A stretch of 33,326 nt of DNA, from the IMG/VR virus record IMGVR_UViG_3300033998_000271, positions 1 to 33,326 of that record. One strand, given 5' to 3'. Position numbers and translations under genes: made by a program. The notes beneath the pieces were generated by a model. It worked only from the letters and a program-made list of their open reading frames with translations. It was not told the DNA's origin and did no database searches. How positions within the stretch are numbered: position 1 is the first letter of the stretch; each line of letters starts with the position of its first letter. This DNA comes from a virus. Positions 1 through 33,326 of the stretch are shown in pieces.

Positions 1-99
1 AAGCCGCACCTCTGTGGCCATGGAGTTAAAAATACTCCATGGAAGGCAGCCTAAAGAGCTGCTAAGAATCCCATCTCCTTCAGGGGATTGGGAGTGTCA
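1..99 (+). mobile_element. Probable right end of an IS200/IS605-type element with omega-RNA-like hairpins
   Basis: Four hairpins follow one another: 3-18 (six pairs with one G-U), 18-42 (nine perfect pairs around TAAAAAT), 46-62 (GCAGC/GCTGC) and 67-88 (AATCCC/GGGATT). The block ends in GGGAGTGTCAA at about 89-99. Stacked hairpins ending in a TCAA-type junction are what I know from right ends of tnpB-bearing IS605-family elements, where this stretch is also the 3' part of the guide-RNA scaffold. The tnpB gene itself would lie left of base 1 and is not visible. The flank that would act as guide starts at about base 100, next to the rsr terminator. It could instead be an unrelated structured RNA. 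Confidence 0.45.
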
Positions 100-112
100 A
101 GTTTCCGTTTCG

Positions 113-145
113 TACAAAAAAGAGGGGAGCTATTTCCCCTCTTAA
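113..145 (-). terminator. Intrinsic terminator of rsr
   Basis: On the minus strand the rsr stop codon runs into an eight-base stem (AAGAGGGG with CCCCTCTT at 120-143) followed by TTTTTT. The same stem and tail, with a different loop, ends the second rsr 3' end at 32972-32998. Confidence 0.85.
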
Positions 146-1695
146 TATTTTTCTTTTATTTCTTGGAGTATATTGAAAGGCTCTTTTTCAGCCATAGCAA
201 TATACTCCAACATTTTTTCACTCCAACCACTGAACAGAAACACTCTCTGTTTCTGAGCAGGTTGAATCGCAGTTCCGTAACCAGCTAAATCGAACGAATA
301 GAAATATGGTCTGCCGTGTCTTTGCAAATATCCGTTTATGCTACCTCTTGCATTGTCACTCCCACTTTGGGAGTAAACTTGCATATCTGAAAACAACAAT
401 ATTCGATTTGGTTCGAAATCTGATTTTTCAAGCAATTCTATGGCTTCTTCAACATATGTGGACATACCTACATCCGTTGATTTGATTGTTTCCATATTTT
501 TGAGGATTCCTCGGTCCAAATCTAACAAAACTTTTTTTGCCGATGAAGCAAAAGCTATAACCAAAGAATTGTCTGAAATATAATTTGCTATAGCTCCCAT
601 TAGGGATGCTATATCTACATACGACACTGACGAATATTGCGATATATAGTTTGTCATTGACCCGCTTGTATCAACAATTACTGTAGTTTTTCCAGGAAGT
701 TTTGGAATATTTTTCACAGACAAAAACAACGCAACTTCAAGAGCTCTCAAAACCTTTTCTTTGTATTCTCTCGAAACATTTGAGAGGCTCGAAACTTCCC
801 TGTATGCCGAATAAAACCGAAATGGGAACTGTTTCGACTTCAATACGGCTTTTTCATCCTTCAATTTTTCAACGACCGAGTCCAAAGCTTGATATGCCCC
901 CGTTTCAAGCAAGTTTCTAAGATTTCTCAAACCAGCCATGAACGGGATATCAAGAGCATTCCAAACTTCGGTTTTGTTTCCGAAGTGGGATATTGCAAGT
1001 TCCCAAGTTGCATGTGACTCTTGAATGAGCTCGAGAGCTTCGGCATCGAATTCTTTCTTTTGTAGCAATTTCTTCAAAGCTCGTATTTGTTTAAGCTCCT
1101 CTCCCACTTCGTCGTATATCAAATAGCGATATAACTGGTTTCGGTACGAATCTTTCGGTTTCGGATGTGTGAGCCGTAGAACATCTTTTAAGCCAGTTTT
1201 GTATTTATTGAGCTGATACTCATCGAAACTTTCAAAAGTATCAGCCAACCCTTTTTTCAACGATGCTGGTAAAGAGCCTTTCGGAGCTTTGTCACCAATA
1301 TCTCCTACAAGCAAGTTGAAAAGTGCTATAACTTCAGACAATTCATCTGCCCTTTTCACAATTCGTGGGACATACTCTCTGACATATGGCTTTGCACCAT
1401 CGTTCAAAGATGCCAAAACCAAAAGCAATATTGGGACTGAGCGTAAATACATAAAATTTCTCGCATAGTTTGCAAGTTGAAGTACAAACTTCGGGTCACT
1501 GTCTAACACTTTTTGTACAACGTTTTTGAGATTTTCAAGGTCTTCTTTTCCCGAAGTATAGAACTTCTCCTCCCCAACAAGATTCGTCAACACTCTTTCG
1601 TACAACTCCATTTCAGGAGTCATACGATATACACGTTCACCCTCGTAATTTCTAACAAACTCTCTTTCTCTTGCTTGTTTCTGAAACTTTGCCAT
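142..1695 (-). CDS. rsr: Ro60/TROVE-domain RNA-binding protein (Rsr)
   Basis: This 517-residue protein is a bacterial Ro60 orthologue. The family forms a HEAT-like ring (TROVE domain, here about residues 15-330) that holds Y RNA on its outside and threads single-stranded RNA ends through its hole. In bacteria it works with exoribonucleases in rRNA and stress RNA decay. The C-terminal von Willebrand A domain (about 335-517) has a complete MIDAS: DTSGS near residue 341, the Thr of MSTYVEE near 408 and the Asp of FSDMQ near 433. The start follows a strong AGGGAGGTG. Three Y RNAs lie directly upstream on the same strand, behind one promoter, with a weak terminator between them and this gene. Bases 346-472 are identical to the right end of the window, where a second version of the 3' end occurs. 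Confidence 0.93.
   Translation of the reverse strand: MAKFQKQAREREFVRNYEGERVYRMTPEMELYERVLTNLVGEEKFYTSGKEDLENLKNVVQKVLDSDPKFVLQLANYARNFMYLRSVPILLLVLASLNDGAKPYVREYVPRIVKRADELSEVIALFNLLVGDIGDKAPKGSLPASLKKGLADTFESFDEYQLNKYKTGLKDVLRLTHPKPKDSYRNQLYRYLIYDEVGEELKQIRALKKLLQKKEFDAEALELIQESHATWELAISHFGNKTEVWNALDIPFMAGLRNLRNLLETGAYQALDSVVEKLKDEKAVLKSKQFPFRFYSAYREVSSLSNVSREYKEKVLRALEVALFLSVKNIPKLPGKTTVIVDTSGSMTNYISQYSSVSYVDIASLMGAIANYISDNSLVIAFASSAKKVLLDLDRGILKNMETIKSTDVGMSTYVEEAIELLEKSDFEPNRILLFSDMQVYSQSGSDNARGSINGYLQRHGRPYFYSFDLAGYGTAIQPAQKQRVFLFSGWSEKMLEYIAMAEKEPFNILQEIKEKY
346..472. repeat. 127-bp direct repeat, copy inside rsr
   Basis: These 127 bases are identical to 33200-33326. They cover rsr codons from the VWA Thr loop to just past the FSDMQ Asp. 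Outside the repeat on the low-coordinate side the two copies fall at once to a diverged but homologous sequence. Confidence 0.95.
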
Positions 1696-1716
1696 TTTCT
1701 ACACCTCCCTAAAATA

Positions 1717-1752
1717 ATAAAAGCCCGTGGTATCTCTCCACAGGCTTTTTTT
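1717..1752 (-). terminator. Terminator between Y RNA 1 and rsr
   Basis: The minus strand reads AAAGCCTGTGG, a seven-base loop, then CCACGGGCTTTT and a T-rich run. It would end the Y RNA transcript and let only part of transcription into rsr. That could keep the RNAs in excess over the protein; this is inference. Confidence 0.75.
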
Positions 1753-1759
1753 GTAATGA

Positions 1760-1896
1760 GCTCGGAGTAACTATTGAAACGGTACATAAACGCGCTCTAC
1801 CGATTGAGCTACGGTAGGGTTTCCCCATACCGGTAGGATTCGAACCCACAACCTCGCGCTTAACAGGCGAAGTAACCGTTTCTTACACTTCCGAGC
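1760..1896 (-). ncRNA. Y RNA 1, YrlA-like with permuted tRNA-like domain
   Basis: The RNA closes on itself with GCTCGGA/TCCGAGC and GAAACGGT/ACCGTTTC, separated by a conserved internal loop (AGTGTAA opposite AATAGTTAC). Beyond the stem comes a tRNA body in permuted order: anticodon-side strand AAGCGCG, T arm (GTGGG, loop TTCGAAT, CCTAC), acceptor 3' strand CGGTATGG, a closing GAAA-type loop, acceptor 5' strand CCTACCG, T8-A9, D arm GCTC/GAGC, and the other anticodon-side strand CGCGTTT. This is the layout known for YrlA-class bacterial Y RNAs, which bind Ro proteins through the outer stem and mimic tRNA. It is the Y RNA closest to rsr. Confidence 0.88.
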
Positions 1897-1900
1897 AAAT

Positions 1901-2046
1901 CTTTTTTTTGAAGAAACTGTTTGAAGTGGTCTAAAATGCGCTCTCCCTATTGAGCTACGGTAGGATTACTCCGTACCGACAGGATTCGAACCTGTATCAC
2001 ACGCGTTCAATGCGAAGTAACCACTTCTAACACTTTCAAAAAAAAA
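1901..2046 (-). ncRNA. Y RNA 2, YrlA-like with permuted tRNA-like domain
   Basis: It has the same plan as Y RNA 1. The outer stem GAAGTGGT/ACCACTTC and TTGAA/TTCAA is prolonged by a T-run pairing with an A-run. The internal loop has AGTGTTA on one side and AACAGTTTC on the other, followed by the shared TTACTTCG. The tRNA-like part has T arm ACAGG/CCTGT with loop TTCGAAT, acceptor strands CGGTACGG and CCTACCG joined by a short loop, T8-A9, and D arm GCTC/GAGC. The acceptor mismatch lies at the same position as in Y RNA 1 (C here, T there). Stem bases differ from copy 1 on both strands while pairing is kept, which argues for a selected RNA fold. Confidence 0.88.
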
Positions 2047-2051
2047 TTATC

Positions 2052-2131
2052 TTCTGTGGAGAAACTGCGATGAGAGCCTTTTCTTTACCCACCTACGCAA
2101 GTACGAAGTATCTCTCACCTACACTTCCATC
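2052..2131 (-). ncRNA. Y RNA 3, short form without tRNA-like domain
   Basis: It starts at the predicted transcription start of the upstream promoter. The stem is TGGA/TCCA plus GTGAGAG/CTCTCAT. The single-stranded signatures match the two larger Y RNAs: GGAAGTGTAGG on the 5' side, TACTTCG just inside the stem, and CAGTTTCTCC on the 3' side. The roughly 35-base loop has no T arm or D arm, so this would be a Ro-binding RNA without the tRNA mimic. A T-run follows at about 2038-2046. It is the first of three tandem RNAs. Confidence 0.75.
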
Positions 2132-2137
2132 ATCTTT

Positions 2138-2166
2138 ATTATATCATTAATCTTTTAAAAAGTCAA
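2138..2166 (-). promoter_or_regulatory. Promoter of the Y RNA-rsr unit
   Basis: TTGACT (2161-2166), a 17-base spacer and TATAAT (2138-2143). The start would fall at about 2131, exactly at the 5' end of Y RNA 3. Confidence 0.85.
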
Positions 2167-5773: not shown

Positions 5774-5802
5774 ATTATATCATATATCTTAGAAAAAGTC
5801 AA
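5774..5802 (-). promoter_or_regulatory. Distal promoter of the 5625 gene
   Basis: TTGACT (5797-5802), 17 bases, TATAAT (5774-5779). The bases on both sides match the proximal promoter, so the pair looks like a 118-bp spaced duplication. No open reading frame of note lies between them. Confidence 0.8.
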
Positions 5803-8250: not shown

Positions 8251-11200
8251 TTAATAGCCTAAAATAACATATTTAATGTCACCATAAAGTGCTTCTGGTG
8301 GACTTTCCGTTGCTTTTTTTATATAGGCAAATTTATCATTTTCACCTAACCAATACCCAGCCCTTGCATAAGTAACACTTTGAATATAATTATCACCCCA
8401 ATCTATTTCAACTGTTCTACCAGCTGCAGAACTACTCTGATAATCTAATTTTGCCCTTAATTTAATTGTATGACTACTTGTTGTATTAAATATATGACGA
8501 GCCAATTCACTAAATGTAGGATCATCCCAATAACCACTATACCAATAGCCAACGGCTGCACCAGTAATATCAGAAGCAGTAGTAGTTAGTGTATACCATG
8601 ATGTCCATGTATTCAATGTCGTAGGATAAGTAATAATAAGTTGAACTGGTGGAATAACATCTGACCAAGTTGCTGCTGAAAGTGAAGAATAAAATAATAT
8701 TCTACAAATAGAATTTGCACTTTTGATATAATCTAAAGTAAGATATCTATTTTCCGTTGCAGCCCAAGAACTTTTCCAAAATTGCGTTTTAATTTGTGTT
8801 AAAATTGCTATATAATCAGTTAAACCAAAAGAAGAGAGATTAATGTCCCTATAAGTACCAGATCCATTAAAATTAACTTCACCACTTGTAACATAACTAT
8901 AAATATTATATGTATTGCTTCCAATCGTTCTAATAAGTCCTTGAGTTCCATCGAGCTTGTAATTTCTGTCTGCCGTTCCAGCTTGAATATATTTGCCTGC
9001 TGTAATTACATTTCCAGCAAGCAAGTCAGCTACTACACTACCTTCCGGTGCATTTTCGGGTGTAAGTGTTATCTTCGACGACAAGTTTATCTCATCATAC
9101 CCAACTGGGGTAATTCCTGAAACATTGTCTACAAGTGAGTCAGTAAAATACGCTATTGCGCCTTCGGGAAGCGAAAAAGCTGGCTTTGCGACAAGTTTGC
9201 TCACAGTGATTGAATTTGCATCTATCCTATCTGCATCTATGTATCCGCTTGTAATCTTTGCTGCGTCCAAATTTGCGATTTTCGCATCGTCTACTGCAAG
9301 GTTGGCTATTTTCGCATTTGTGATTGCCGCATCTTGTATTTTTGCTGTTTGTATAGCTGCATCTTTAATGTGCACTGTGTCAATTATTCCGTTCGCGATG
9401 TTCGCTGAATTTGTGATTATTTGATTAGTTCCGATTTTTTCAGCTGTTATAGCGCTTGCCGCTATCTTTGCTGAGGTAACGGCGTTCGCTAATATTTTGT
9501 CCGATGTGATTGCATTTGCTTGTATTTTTGGAGCTGATATGCTATTGTTTGCGATATGAGTTTCTGTGATTTCATTTGGTAAATCGTCAAGTTTGCTATT
9601 GAGCTCAGTTTGAAGATTTGGCAACGTGACTGTATTCAACTCTTCTAAATTCGCTTGTAACCCGTCTAATATAGTGCTTTCTAAATCTTCATCATATACG
9701 GCTGTAGTTGTCGCACTGACGACTTCGCTGTAGTCGCTTTGATTATTGCTTGTATCAACTGCCAATACTCGGAAGTAGTATGTGGTATTCGTCGTTCCAC
9801 CGTATACGATATAATTCGAGTCAGTATATATAGTATCTTTGAGAGTATCAAAGTTATCAAGTGATACCTCTACCTTGTATTTATCCAAATCGGGTTCAGT
9901 ATTTGGAGTCCACTTCACTATTATTTTCTGGAATAGCGGTTCAACGGTTAGTCCAGTAGGCGCTTCAGGAGGTATAGTGTCTTTCGCTGATACGATATTT
10001 TCTACACTTGTCCATGCTGACTTTTTGCCTTCTGCGTCAAAAGCTCTCACTTTCACGAAATATTCTGTATTTCCAATAACTTGTATATATACACTTGTTT
10101 CTGATACAGTATTGTATTGCCACCAAATACCATCCTGTGAGTATGCTATTTCATATCCGAGCAGGTCCGTTTCAGTATTTGGATTGAATGTCACTTTCAA
10201 AACTGACTCCCTATTGACTACTTCCGTTGTGACTATCAACCCTGTAGGGGTATAGGGAGCTCTACCATCAAGATGGCTTGTGATAGCTTGCTGTTCTTGC
10301 ATATCGGTTTGTAGTTCAGTGATACTTCCTACAATTTCTTCTATCTGGCTTTGGTTTGAGGATTCGGTGATAACTTCAACAGGCGTGCTTTTATAAACTT
10401 CTTTGTTACTTATGTCGAATACAATATCTTTCCATTCACTCAACACAAGTTCGGTATTGTAGCTCAAGTCATCGTTGATAATGTGTTTGATTTGCTCGAT
10501 TATAAACGTTCCTACTGCTATACCTTTTAGGGGTATATTGAAATTAACTAAATTACCTGCGAATATATCAGGATAAAATTCGTTCAAAGTTAGTTTGAAT
10601 ACTATATCTTTGTTTATATTGAACTTCAAAGCGTCGATTATATTGCTCAAAACGCTTGTATCGCTGTAATAAGACTTGATTGAAATTTCATTATCGGGCT
10701 CGTCTGTTATATTTGGTTCTTCAACGGTGTTCAAACTAAGCTTTTTGATTTGCCGTCCTCTAAACCGTACTTGCGATATCGTATAATCCACGCTTGACGC
10801 TAAGTTCGTAATGTTCAAAACAAGTTTGTCGGGATAGGCTGTGAGTTTATTCAGACGTATAAAACCATCACCGTCTCCTTCAGAAAACGCTCCAAGATTG
10901 TCGACGATTGTATCTCCTTGCATAACAGTGATAAACACAGTATTTGCAAAATCTTTTGCAAACTCCGATGTATACTCAAACTCAAAATTCTGTGTTTGCC
11001 CTGCTTTGATTATCGCTGCGTCTCCTGTAAGCGTTGTATCCACAAGCAAGTCTTGATTTGAAGAACTTATCTCATACCCTTCACTTTCAACTTTGAGTTG
11101 ATTATATTTCGCTTTTTGCTCGAGATTATATTTTGAAAAGTTTTCTTGATTGATAGTCAAGGCTATTGCTGGGTCTGTGAAGTTTTCAACTCGTGTTCTA

Positions 11201-11997
11201 TACAATATCTTCCCATCCGGCCCAGTTGAAATAATAGCTGCCGTAGCTTCACAAATTTGCTGTATAACTTGCCAATACGACTTGTCTTGCTCAGCTATGA
11301 ATACGTCAAATGTAGTTGAAAGCGGTTGCAAATCTTGATAAGAACTATCCAACCCACATCTATTGAGCAAATCGGCGATAATATCGCTTGGAGTCATCGA
11401 AGTATACAAAAGCGGATTTTTCAAGCGTTTTTGCGTTGTAATCCACAAAATATCTTTCAGTTCTATTTCTGCTTCTTTGTGTTTTTCGGTTATCGCTTGT
11501 GCAGGTTTCCAACCACGAAACAACGGAATAGCAATATCCATCAACATTTCAGGACTAAGCTCATACCCTACTGGGGTAATACCATTAACAACATCAACTA
11601 ATGTATACCTGAAATAAGCAATAGCTCCATCAGGCATATCTAAACAATCTCTGCCATCAACGTCGTGAATAACGATATAAACTTGTACTTCCCATACCTT
11701 GTTCAAATACCCCTGCTCTACTGTACCGTTGATTTTACCAACATTTGGATTGAATTCATCGTTGAAAACAGTGCTTGTGAAGGCGTTTATATCGTTTTTC
11801 ACCGTTAGTTTTGCGGTATCAATAGCGGGAGTATCAAGCAACTGTATTTTGTTATTCACGGTGATTTTTTTGACAAAATAGCTTATATCGTACCAATTCT
11901 CACCGTCTATTTTTGCGAGTACTTTTATACTCTTGTGCTTCGTAGTATCACGATAAAAAGGCTCGTAACTTCTATCTACACTCAATTTCTCAAACAT
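8251..11997 (-). CDS. Tail-tip / receptor-binding protein with two fibronectin III domains
   Basis: The protein has 1248 residues. Residues 1 to about 560 look like a baseplate or tail-hub region (phage-tail Ig-like strands, then a domain with VIQQICEATAAIISTGPDGK). Two fibronectin type III domains follow (about 580-765, with TPTGL and PEAPTGLTVEP starts and the YFVKVRAFD / YYFRVLAVD strands). Residues 790-940 are short repeats of the AITSDKI / AVTSAKI type, as in beta-helical fibre shafts. The last 250 residues are a Ser/Thr/Tyr/Trp-rich probable receptor-binding part (TWTSWYTLTTT). A 25-residue motif occurs twice, near 120-145 and 940-966. It follows the tape measure, as expected for the tail tip. 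Confidence 0.82.
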   Translation of the reverse strand: MFEKLSVDRSYEPFYRDTTKHKSIKVLAKIDGENWYDISYFVKKITVNNKIQLLDTPAIDTAKLTVKNDINAFTSTVFNDEFNPNVGKINGTVEQGYLNKVWEVQVYIVIHDVDGRDCLDMPDGAIAYFRYTLVDVVNGITPVGYELSPEMLMDIAIPLFRGWKPAQAITEKHKEAEIELKDILWITTQKRLKNPLLYTSMTPSDIIADLLNRCGLDSSYQDLQPLSTTFDVFIAEQDKSYWQVIQQICEATAAIISTGPDGKILYRTRVENFTDPAIALTINQENFSKYNLEQKAKYNQLKVESEGYEISSSNQDLLVDTTLTGDAAIIKAGQTQNFEFEYTSEFAKDFANTVFITVMQGDTIVDNLGAFSEGDGDGFIRLNKLTAYPDKLVLNITNLASSVDYTISQVRFRGRQIKKLSLNTVEEPNITDEPDNEISIKSYYSDTSVLSNIIDALKFNINKDIVFKLTLNEFYPDIFAGNLVNFNIPLKGIAVGTFIIEQIKHIINDDLSYNTELVLSEWKDIVFDISNKEVYKSTPVEVITESSNQSQIEEIVGSITELQTDMQEQQAITSHLDGRAPYTPTGLIVTTEVVNRESVLKVTFNPNTETDLLGYEIAYSQDGIWWQYNTVSETSVYIQVIGNTEYFVKVRAFDAEGKKSAWTSVENIVSAKDTIPPEAPTGLTVEPLFQKIIVKWTPNTEPDLDKYKVEVSLDNFDTLKDTIYTDSNYIVYGGTTNTTYYFRVLAVDTSNNQSDYSEVVSATTTAVYDEDLESTILDGLQANLEELNTVTLPNLQTELNSKLDDLPNEITETHIANNSISAPKIQANAITSDKILANAVTSAKIAASAITAEKIGTNQIITNSANIANGIIDTVHIKDAAIQTAKIQDAAITNAKIANLAVDDAKIANLDAAKITSGYIDADRIDANSITVSKLVAKPAFSLPEGAIAYFTDSLVDNVSGITPVGYDEINLSSKITLTPENAPEGSVVADLLAGNVITAGKYIQAGTADRNYKLDGTQGLIRTIGSNTYNIYSYVTSGEVNFNGSGTYRDINLSSFGLTDYIAILTQIKTQFWKSSWAATENRYLTLDYIKSANSICRILFYSSLSAATWSDVIPPVQLIITYPTTLNTWTSWYTLTTTASDITGAAVGYWYSGYWDDPTFSELARHIFNTTSSHTIKLRAKLDYQSSSAAGRTVEIDWGDNYIQSVTYARAGYWLGENDKFAYIKKATESPPEALYGDIKYVILGY

Positions 11998-25997: not shown

Positions 25998-26264
25998 TTA
26001 GTTTTCCACTTCCTGATAATGCTCCAATTTCTTCAATTCTTCTTTGTATTCTTCAATAATATCTAAACCTACCCAATATTGTTGAAAACGAGTTTTTTTC
26101 TTTTCAAATCCTTGGCTTCTAAGATAATCTCCCGATTCTTTCGCCATAGCTGGTTTTTCTTTTCTCTTGATACACCACAAAATATAAGCGGAATACAACG
26201 TATTATAATCAACAACAGATTTCGAGTCAATCTTACACACTTCATTCAAGAATTCTTTCATCAT
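25998..26264 (-). CDS. Stand-alone primase-C-type winged-helix protein
   Basis: The protein has about 88 residues from the ATG at 26264, which overlaps the stop of the upstream gene (ATGA). The pattern VDYNTLYSAYILWCIKRKEK, then YLRSQGFEKKKTRFQQYWVGLD, is that of the winged-helix domain at the C-terminus of phage/plasmid D5-type primase-helicases. Here it stands alone, directly before the small terminase, so it could be a DNA-site recognition factor. The function is inference. Confidence 0.65.
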   Translation of the reverse strand: MMKEFLNEVCKIDSKSVVDYNTLYSAYILWCIKRKEKPAMAKESGDYLRSQGFEKKKTRFQQYWVGLDIIEEYKEELKKLEHYQEVEN

Positions 26265-32384: not shown

Positions 32385-32567
32385 TCATGCTGTTTTTATT
32401 AAATCTTCTATTTGTTCATCATCCTTTACGGGATGATTTTCTATATATTCTTTTATAGCCTCACTAGCTACTTTATAAATTTTCATGCCTGTTACTTCCG
32501 AATAAAGTTTTATTTTATCATGAATATCTTTCTCAACTAAAACATATTTATATTTATCTCTAGACAT
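32385..32567 (-). CDS. Ribbon-helix-helix regulator A
   Basis: The protein has 60 residues. It has the ribbon-helix-helix pattern: a strand-forming start (KYKYVLVEKDIHDKIKLY), a turn, and a second helix (IYKVASEAIKEYIENHP). It is a close paralogue of the gene at 32705. AAGGAGGTGAAAAA precedes the ATG. The promoter in front overlaps two GTTTTA(A/T)AACAA sites, which would suit autoregulation by this protein; that is inference. Confidence 0.8.
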   Translation of the reverse strand: MSRDKYKYVLVEKDIHDKIKLYSEVTGMKIYKVASEAIKEYIENHPVKDDEQIEDLIKTA

Positions 32568-32673: not shown

Positions 32674-32706
32674 TTCGTACAAAAAAAGGGGCAAAAGTCC
32701 CCTTTT
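32674..32706 (-). terminator. Terminator of the 32705 gene
   Basis: AAAAGGGG, loop, CCCCTTTT and TTT on the minus strand, followed by TTGTACGAA, the same tail as at the two rsr terminators. Confidence 0.85.
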
Positions 32707-32893
32707 ATTTTTGTGTTAACCACTTTTCAAAAATCTTTTGTTTTTCTTCGTTGAAAGGATTTTCTTCGATGTACTTGTCTATTGCTTTGCTTGCCAACTC
32801 GTGCATTGGTATTCCTGAAAGCTGCGAATAGATTTTAAGCTTTTTATGAGTAAGTTTTTCAACTGCAACGTGTTTCAACCTTTCTTTAGCCAT
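32705..32893 (-). CDS. Ribbon-helix-helix regulator B
   Basis: The protein has 62 residues, similar to regulator A: strand (LKHVAVEKLTHKKLKIY), then the helix HELASKAIDKYIEENPF. AAGGAGGTGAAAAA precedes the ATG. It stands alone between two terminators, next to the second rsr 3' end, and two TTCGTACAA sites lie upstream of it. It may control its own promoter; no clear -35/-10 pair was found there. Confidence 0.8.
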   Translation of the reverse strand: MAKERLKHVAVEKLTHKKLKIYSQLSGIPMHELASKAIDKYIEENPFNEEKQKIFEKWLTQK

Positions 32894-32948: not shown

Positions 32949-32974
32949 TTCGTACAATTTTATCTTTCGTACAA
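32949..32974. repeat. Tandem TTCGTACAA sites
   Basis: TTCGTACAA occurs at 32949-32957 and 32966-32974; further copies are at 109-117 and 32674-32682. Three of the four touch the A-run of a terminator. Confidence 0.55.
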
Positions 32975-32998
32975 AAAAGAGGGGCAAAACCCCTCTTA
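32972..32998 (-). terminator. Terminator after the second rsr 3' end
   Basis: AAGAGGGG, loop TTTTG, CCCCTCTT and TTTT on the minus strand. Stem and tail are the same as at 113-145; the loop differs. Confidence 0.88.
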
Positions 32999-33326
32999 GT
33001 AATTATGTTTGATTTCTTCTATAATATTAAGCCCTTCCTTCTCAGAAAGAGCTATATAATTCAACATCTTCTCACTCCACCCGCTAAACAAGGTAACTCC
33101 TTTCTTCCAAAGTGGTTGCACCGATGAGCCGTATCCTGCAAGGTCGAAGGAGTAAAAATGCGGATGGTTATGAGTTTCTAAATAGTGTGATATGCTTCGT
33201 CTTGCATTGTCACTCCCACTTTGGGAGTAAACTTGCATATCTGAAAACAACAATATTCGATTTGGTTCGAAATCTGATTTTTCAAGCAATTCTATGGCTT
33301 CTTCAACATATGTGGACATACCTACA
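32996..33326 (-). CDS. rsr: Ro60/TROVE protein, C-terminal end only (second rsr version)
   Basis: The frame is open to the right edge. Only the last part of the VWA domain is present: MSTYVEEAIELLEKSD with the MIDAS Thr, FSDMQV with the Asp, then a C-terminus that matches the first rsr at about 42 of 67 residues. The diverged tail is 204 bases long in both versions (142-345 and 32996-33199), so joining it to codons 1-450 of the first gene gives again exactly 517 residues. This can be the true end of rsr in a circular genome or a second rsr gene cut off by the window. Confidence 0.88.
   Translation of the reverse strand, partial: VGMSTYVEEAIELLEKSDFEPNRILLFSDMQVYSQSGSDNARRSISHYLETHNHPHFYSFDLAGYGSSVQPLWKKGVTLFSGWSEKMLNYIALSEKEGLNIIEEIKHNY
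33200..33326. repeat. 127-bp direct repeat, copy at the right edge
   Basis: These bases are identical to 346-472 and end exactly at the window edge. A length of 127 is also a common largest k in de Bruijn assemblers, so the edge may mark an assembly-graph branch rather than a biological end. Confidence 0.95.

Follow-up and report, generated by a model that had tools for sequence, protein, structure and literature searches.

A phage-borne Ro60–Y RNA operon with three tandem Y RNAs, two of which resemble circularly permuted tRNAs and carry an anticodon-like hairpin

Why viruses carry a Ro60 gene together with a set of Y RNAs is the question raised by the locus described here. The window—the whole stretch of 33,326 nucleotides that was analysed—features on its minus strand, in this order, a promoter, the RNAs Y3, Y2, and Y1, a terminator, a ribosome-binding site, and the gene rsr, which starts at position 1695. 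The remaining genes encode a terminase, a portal protein, an SU10-type capsid protein, a tape measure protein, RecT, DnaB, and others. The record is hence that of a phage, as a preliminary description of this DNA had held, and of a tailed one. Among the proteins searched, none beside the unit was recognised as an RNA enzyme such as PNPase or RNA ligase.

The gene rsr (142–1695, minus strand) encodes a Ro60-family protein of 517 residues with a TROVE domain, the HEAT-repeat ring, and a C-terminal vWA domain. The former is matched by Pfam PF05731 with 123 bits (cut-off 23, E 2e-35) and the latter by Pfam VWA_2 with 27.9 bits (cut-off 27, E 4e-6). In addition, Rsr matches PHROG 850, a family of RNA-binding proteins (E 7e-58), as well as the sequences of solved Ro/Rsr chains of phage and Deinococcus origin; the earlier assignment of the gene behind the terminator to the Ro60 family is therefore sound. 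The five residues of the vWA metal-site pattern (DxSxS...T...D) are conserved: D342, S344, S346, and D437 are invariant among 16 phage Rsr proteins, and T413 is nearly so. This 16-phage alignment is too diverse to serve as a scan profile; a genome scan with the single Rsr protein gave no matches, and an alignment is needed as the query. A structure of a phage Ro protein appears to exist already, since the TROVE protein solved in PDB entries 9KOP and 9L5Y has, as judged by its sequence, apparently the origin Thermus phage phiLo (L128).

The printed C-terminus of Rsr needs a correction that arises from the assembly. Positions 33200–33326 at the contig end are identical to positions 346–472 inside rsr over 127 bp, and an exact overlap of 127 bases is the junction signature of a de Bruijn assembly at k = 127. 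The true genome is probably circular or circularly permuted with a length of about 32,854 bp, and positions 1–345, where the printed C-terminus is encoded, belong to an alternative branch of the assembly. An alternative C-terminus of 109 residues, 77% identical, is encoded at 32996–33325 (minus strand) and is joined to rsr via the overlap, the two versions differing in 142–345 versus 32996–33199. The presence of two rsr genes in the phage was considered and rejected, because the second fragment joins rsr through the exact overlap at the contig end. Neither the Y RNAs nor the first 408 or so residues of Rsr are affected, since the duplicated and alternative stretches do not reach them.

The promoter (2138–2166, minus strand) is a strong one of the sigma-70 type, TTGACT-N17-TATAAT with a TG before the −10 element, and matches 11 of 12 consensus bases. 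It has a counterpart at the equivalent place in a sister phage (IMGVR_UViG_3300034685_000271, 32,615 bp), the rsr of which is 79% identical; there, a promoter TTGGCT-N17-TATTAT precedes two Y RNAs, a short one and a tRNA-like one, and these are followed by a matching terminator and rsr. The intrinsic terminator between Y1 and rsr (1719–1749, minus strand) consists of a 12-bp stem followed by T-rich DNA. The single promoter ahead of three RNAs and the terminator behind them had both been proposed before, and both withstood the analysis, the terminator stem being placed at 1749–1719. Because the terminator lies between Y1 and rsr, the Y RNAs are expected to be more abundant than the rsr message.

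The window has three exact TTGACT-N16-18-TATAAT sites, each of them on the minus strand, versus 0.08 expected. The two further sites lie at 5774–5802 and 26202–26230, and the DNA around the former is 71% identical to the promoter region of the rsr unit. Three small genes for Arc-like or Omega-like repressors flank the unit on both sides (2195–2380, 32385–32567, and 32705–32893, minus strand). The motif TTTTTTGTACGAA is found after terminators three times in the window (104–124, 32674–32690, and 32966–32982, minus strand); the same arrangement of a terminator and then this motif recurs 3′ of rsr in the sister phage and at another rsr locus (L003), and the motif is possibly a binding or exchange site. 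Hairpin-rich stretches follow the rsr terminator and a GTACGAA motif in the window (1–110, minus strand) and in the sister phage (5050–5120), with differing sequences; we take them to resemble the ends of IS200/IS605-type elements.

All three RNAs are closed by the same rigid clamp, the Ro clamp. Its 5′ strand reads GUGUNN-N7-(U/A)UACUUCG, and the N7 bases are paired to the 3′ strand, behind which come a conserved sequence rich in pyrimidines and an outer stem. Y1 (approximately 1751–1902, minus strand) and Y2 (approximately 1903–2045, minus strand) are tRNA-like. Inside their clamp follow a hairpin of 3 bp with a 7-nt loop (CGC-CUGUUAA-GCG in Y1, CGC-AUUGAAC-GCG in Y2), a variable stretch like that of tRNA, a T arm whose loop is UUCGAAU, an acceptor-like hairpin closed off by a short loop, and a D arm. 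This amounts to a circularly permuted tRNA fold with the ends placed between the D arm and the anticodon arm, the acceptor closed, and no CCA. Every helix of the wider class of tRNA-like Y RNAs described in PMC8394870—permuted T, acceptor-like, and D arms and an end-closing stem—is present in both. Y3 (approximately 2056–2131, minus strand) consists of the clamp and a small loop; it lacks the tRNA-like domain and is classed as a short Y RNA. The division into two classes made earlier is thereby upheld, and so is the number of RNAs, with the extents of Y1 and Y2 corrected to about 145–150 nt each. Since Y1, Y2, and Y3 all close with the Ro clamp, each is predicted to be able to bind Rsr.

The clamp goes with rsr well beyond this phage. 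Upstream of 76 related viral rsr genes, its signature, GYG-N3-N7-NTNCWTC, is found in 153 units, versus 3.8 in shuffled sequences and 8 on the opposite strand; the expression misses some units visible by eye (in Streptomyces phage LuckySocke and a Brevundimonas phage), and such counts are lower bounds. The short Y RNAs of the window and the sister phage share the clamp and differ in the effector part.

The RNAs themselves were recognised by covariance models built without window sequences. R1 comprises 18 tRNA-like units from the sister phage, another viral contig, and Clostridia; it matches Y1 with 101.4 bits (E 9e-24) and, with filters off, Y2 with 80.0 bits and the clamp of Y3 with 24.8 bits. 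R2, made from 18 short units, matches Y3 with 37.4 bits (E 4e-6) at 2138–2046. In the R1 alignment of nonwindow relatives, 93.8% of the cells are paired and 22 of 32 pairs are changed on both sides; no shuffle equals this pairing, and sliding the partners by one column leaves about 40% paired. The clamp pairs of the nonwindow short class covary in 8 of 8 cases. The folds of Y1, Y2, and Y3 have z-scores of −4.4, −5.3, and about −2.9 relative to shuffled sequences. Matches and covariation were thus found, where the preliminary description had named their absence for every RNA, together with a lack of transcripts, as the outcome that would speak against it. The Rfam YrlA model (RF02553), which it had suggested for this check, serves in part: Y1 is matched with 34.1 bits (E 1e-5) and the core of Y2 with 25.5 bits (E 0.003), both below the curated gathering score of 69 bits, and Y3 is left unmatched in the scan of the window. 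Units adjoining rsr in known isolated phages fail this cut-off as well, with 25.8–52.1 bits, and the cut-off is therefore too strict for phage units.

The unit has relatives in phages and bacteria. Among the 76 viral rsr loci, at least 23 have three or more clamp units and at least 31 have both classes. Isolated phages have three to seven clamp units by rsr, often of both classes; examples are Caulobacter phage CcrPW with seven clamp units, Xanthomonas phage Fontebon with five including a short one, and Rhizobium phage TM40 with six. The arrays of these three phages and of LuckySocke resemble that of the window in being tandem, having the same clamp, and lying directly upstream of a phage TROVE gene; they differ from it in having up to seven units and in belonging to unrelated phages with an Rsr that is less than 35% identical. 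A viral contig of 70 kb (IMGVR_UViG_3300049138_000182, L176) carries at least six tandem Y RNAs within 1.3 kb. The order of the window—a short Y RNA, two tRNA-like Y RNAs, and rsr—is also that of Acetivibrio mesophilus and A. straminisolvens. These loci differ in being on bacterial contigs and in having WCX-domain regulators upstream, and that of A. mesophilus has a gene for a T4-type RNA ligase downstream. A gene with an RtcB domain lies just upstream of the rsr locus in two Clostridium species. YrlA (RF02553), phage YrlA included, likewise lies beside rsr and agrees with Y1 and Y2 in its closing stem and in the permuted succession of T arm, capped acceptor-like hairpin, and D arm. The rsr-yrlBA-rtcBA operon of Salmonella (PMC7790460) likewise encodes rsr with more than one Y RNA, whereas the window has three Y RNAs, no RNA ligase or cyclase recognised alongside, and a sigma-70-type promoter in place of the RtcR/sigma-54 control of that operon.

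Listeria phages present a further variant. Three highly transcribed regions upstream of the Ro-like gene of the P100-like phage CKA15 were proposed as possible Y RNAs (PMC12282133, 2025). In phage P100 (L354), the clamp expression finds no match upstream of the Ro-like gene; directly before gp165, at 11180–11430 on the minus strand, are three tandem short stem-loops with CNAACAGCAATTACTA-like motifs, which are possibly the RNAs seen in CKA15. They differ from those of the window in sequence and, by eye, in the lack of a tRNA-like domain. For at least two tRNAs that are annotated on the plus strand of P100 (tRNA-Pro and tRNA-Met), it is the minus strand that reads as a tRNA, and the R1 matches at the tRNA positions of this phage are on the minus strand only. 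In other phages, an annotated tRNA overlaps a Y RNA unit: tRNA-Ser of LuckySocke (L126, 2274–2347), tRNA-Leu of Gordonia phage BlueNGold (L141, 4484–4572), and tRNA-Asn of Microbacterium phage SM23 (L355, 2484–2550). These tRNAs, which lie near genes for Ro-like or RNA-binding proteins, are probably misannotated. A plain search of viral contigs for a T arm followed by a D arm was discarded, as nearly all of its 119 stretches are ordinary tandem tRNAs.

Taken by its parts, the locus is best read as a phage-borne Ro60 (Rsr)–Y RNA operon that acts through Rsr RNPs on RNA decay, sorting, or protection—a reading to which we give a probability of roughly 0.6. The one host-type promoter would drive a transcript that includes all three Y RNAs; transcription would mostly end at the terminator, and read-through or a processed transcript would provide Rsr in smaller amounts. 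Y1, Y2, and Y3 may form RNPs by docking onto Rsr with their common clamp. Y3, having nothing but the clamp and a small loop, would probably do no more than stabilise or gate the Rsr ring. Y1 and Y2, as tRNA mimics without an aminoacyl end, may be handles that bring tRNA-binding or RNA-decay proteins to Rsr. By analogy with Deinococcus, the partner of the handle could be PNPase; tRNA-processing or tRNA-cutting enzymes are possible as well. Bacterial Rsr is known to bind Y RNA, and in Deinococcus a Y RNA tethers Rsr to PNPase in the complex RYPER (PMC7790460, PMC8394870). As the outcome, RNA of the infected cell would be degraded, sorted, or protected. The redirected RNA decay and the hiding of RNAs put forward in the preliminary description are likewise conjectural.

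The hairpin that follows the clamp core in Y1 and Y2 resembles an anticodon arm. A stem of 3 bp with a 7-nt loop at this fixed place is present in 43 of the 109 tRNA-like units that are long enough for the comparison, versus 6.8 units (maximum 15) upon shuffling of the segment and 2–10 units for other loop sizes; the units are related by descent, and such counts do not represent independent events. The loop bases are those of tRNA, with U33 in 38, a purine at 37 in 42, and A38 in 38 of the 43, and the triplet varies, corresponding to Asn, Thr, Lys, Gln, Arg, Ser, Ile, Pro, Glu, and others. Given the outer two pairs, the third pair of the stem forms in 43 of 47 units, versus 20.5 (maximum 32) with shuffled partners, and in 31 of 35 distinct 13-mers. 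ARAGORN reads nine of the 109 units as tRNAs, and R1 positions 34–70, from the hairpin to the T arm, also match several annotated phage tRNAs. The D arm is within 0–2 edits of real tRNAs in 35 of the 38 hairpin-bearing units with U33. A copy of one particular tRNA was rejected as the origin of a unit: the species of the D arm agrees with the anticodon in 7 of 38 units versus 9.1 upon permutation, and the units are therefore generic tRNA mimics. RF02553 has a longer closing helix where Y1 and Y2 carry the hairpin, and the accessible text of a review gives D, T, and acceptor as the only mimicked parts of YrlA (PMC8394870). No description of an anticodon-like loop in Y RNAs was found in the open-access literature, a coverage outside of which the primary YrlA papers fall. 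As far as checked, and with priority uncertain, Y RNAs of this group are a previously undescribed variant by virtue of the hairpin.

What the hairpin does can be read in several ways. It may have no role of its own, being a remnant of an ancestral tRNA or a docking site for tRNA-modification enzymes in units that are otherwise much like ordinary YrlA, an alternative that we regard as possible but rather unlikely. The variable region, T arm, and D arm have been kept as well, the D arms being as close to real tRNAs as stated above, and YrlA is a substrate of tRNA-modifying enzymes (PMC8394870). However, the stem covaries, and the loop stays conserved at positions 33, 37, and 38, but not in the triplet, between phages and Clostridia that are far apart; this pattern suggests that selection has persisted or that the hairpin arose more than once. 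Conversely, many Y RNAs of phages and Clostridia, Y1 and Y2 included, might mimic nearly a whole permuted, CCA-less tRNA with a working anticodon loop. The arrays would then confront enzymes that read tRNAs with a range of anticodon loops; protected by Rsr, these could, for instance, act as decoys for anticodon nucleases or as sensors of them. This extension is offered tentatively and is, in our judgement, unlikely as it stands. A narrower version, in which Rsr-protected tRNA-like Y RNAs serve counter-defence as decoys or inhibitors of host anticodon-loop nucleases during infection, is attractive because of the anticodon-like loop and the tRNA-repair genes beside cellular relatives (RtcB at the two Clostridium loci and the T4-type RNA ligase of A. 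mesophilus). It also fits the varied triplets, the covarying third pair, and the units taken for tRNAs by ARAGORN, and YrlA was suggested as a competitive inhibitor of anticodon nuclease in PMC7790460. Yet 66 of the 109 units lack the hairpin at the fixed place, its stem has 3 bp rather than 5, the D arms and anticodons do not mark the units as copies of particular tRNAs, and no host nuclease is known, and we consider this version unlikely. That the RNAs are degenerate phage tRNA genes accidentally linked to rsr, as their T and D arms and the ARAGORN readings of some such units could suggest, is refuted to near certainty by the rsr-linked clamp that closes every unit, the permuted order of the arms, and the loop-capped acceptor-like stem, and ARAGORN finds no tRNA in the window.

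As a phage rsr–Y RNA operon, the unit of the window is one more of many. The preliminary description took three RNAs of two classes in one phage unit to be undescribed; the loci with at least three units or with both classes, and the Acetivibrio order, show otherwise. In 2014, Chen reportedly placed probable Y RNAs close to Ro60 in over 250 species of bacteria and phages. The presence of YrlA RNAs in phages is stated in PMC12282133, citing Chen 2014, and in PMC7765460, citing Sim & Wolin 2018.

For the biology of these phages, tandem two-class Y RNA arrays emerge as common neighbours of rsr genes. The rigid clamp signature and the covariance models find RNAs that are missed by the Rfam cut-off, and the Y RNAs of such arrays have in some cases been annotated as tRNAs. 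Should the anticodon-like hairpin prove functional, it would make the reason for viral Ro60 genes directly testable, the candidate answer being interference with enzymes by which tRNA anticodons are cut or modified.
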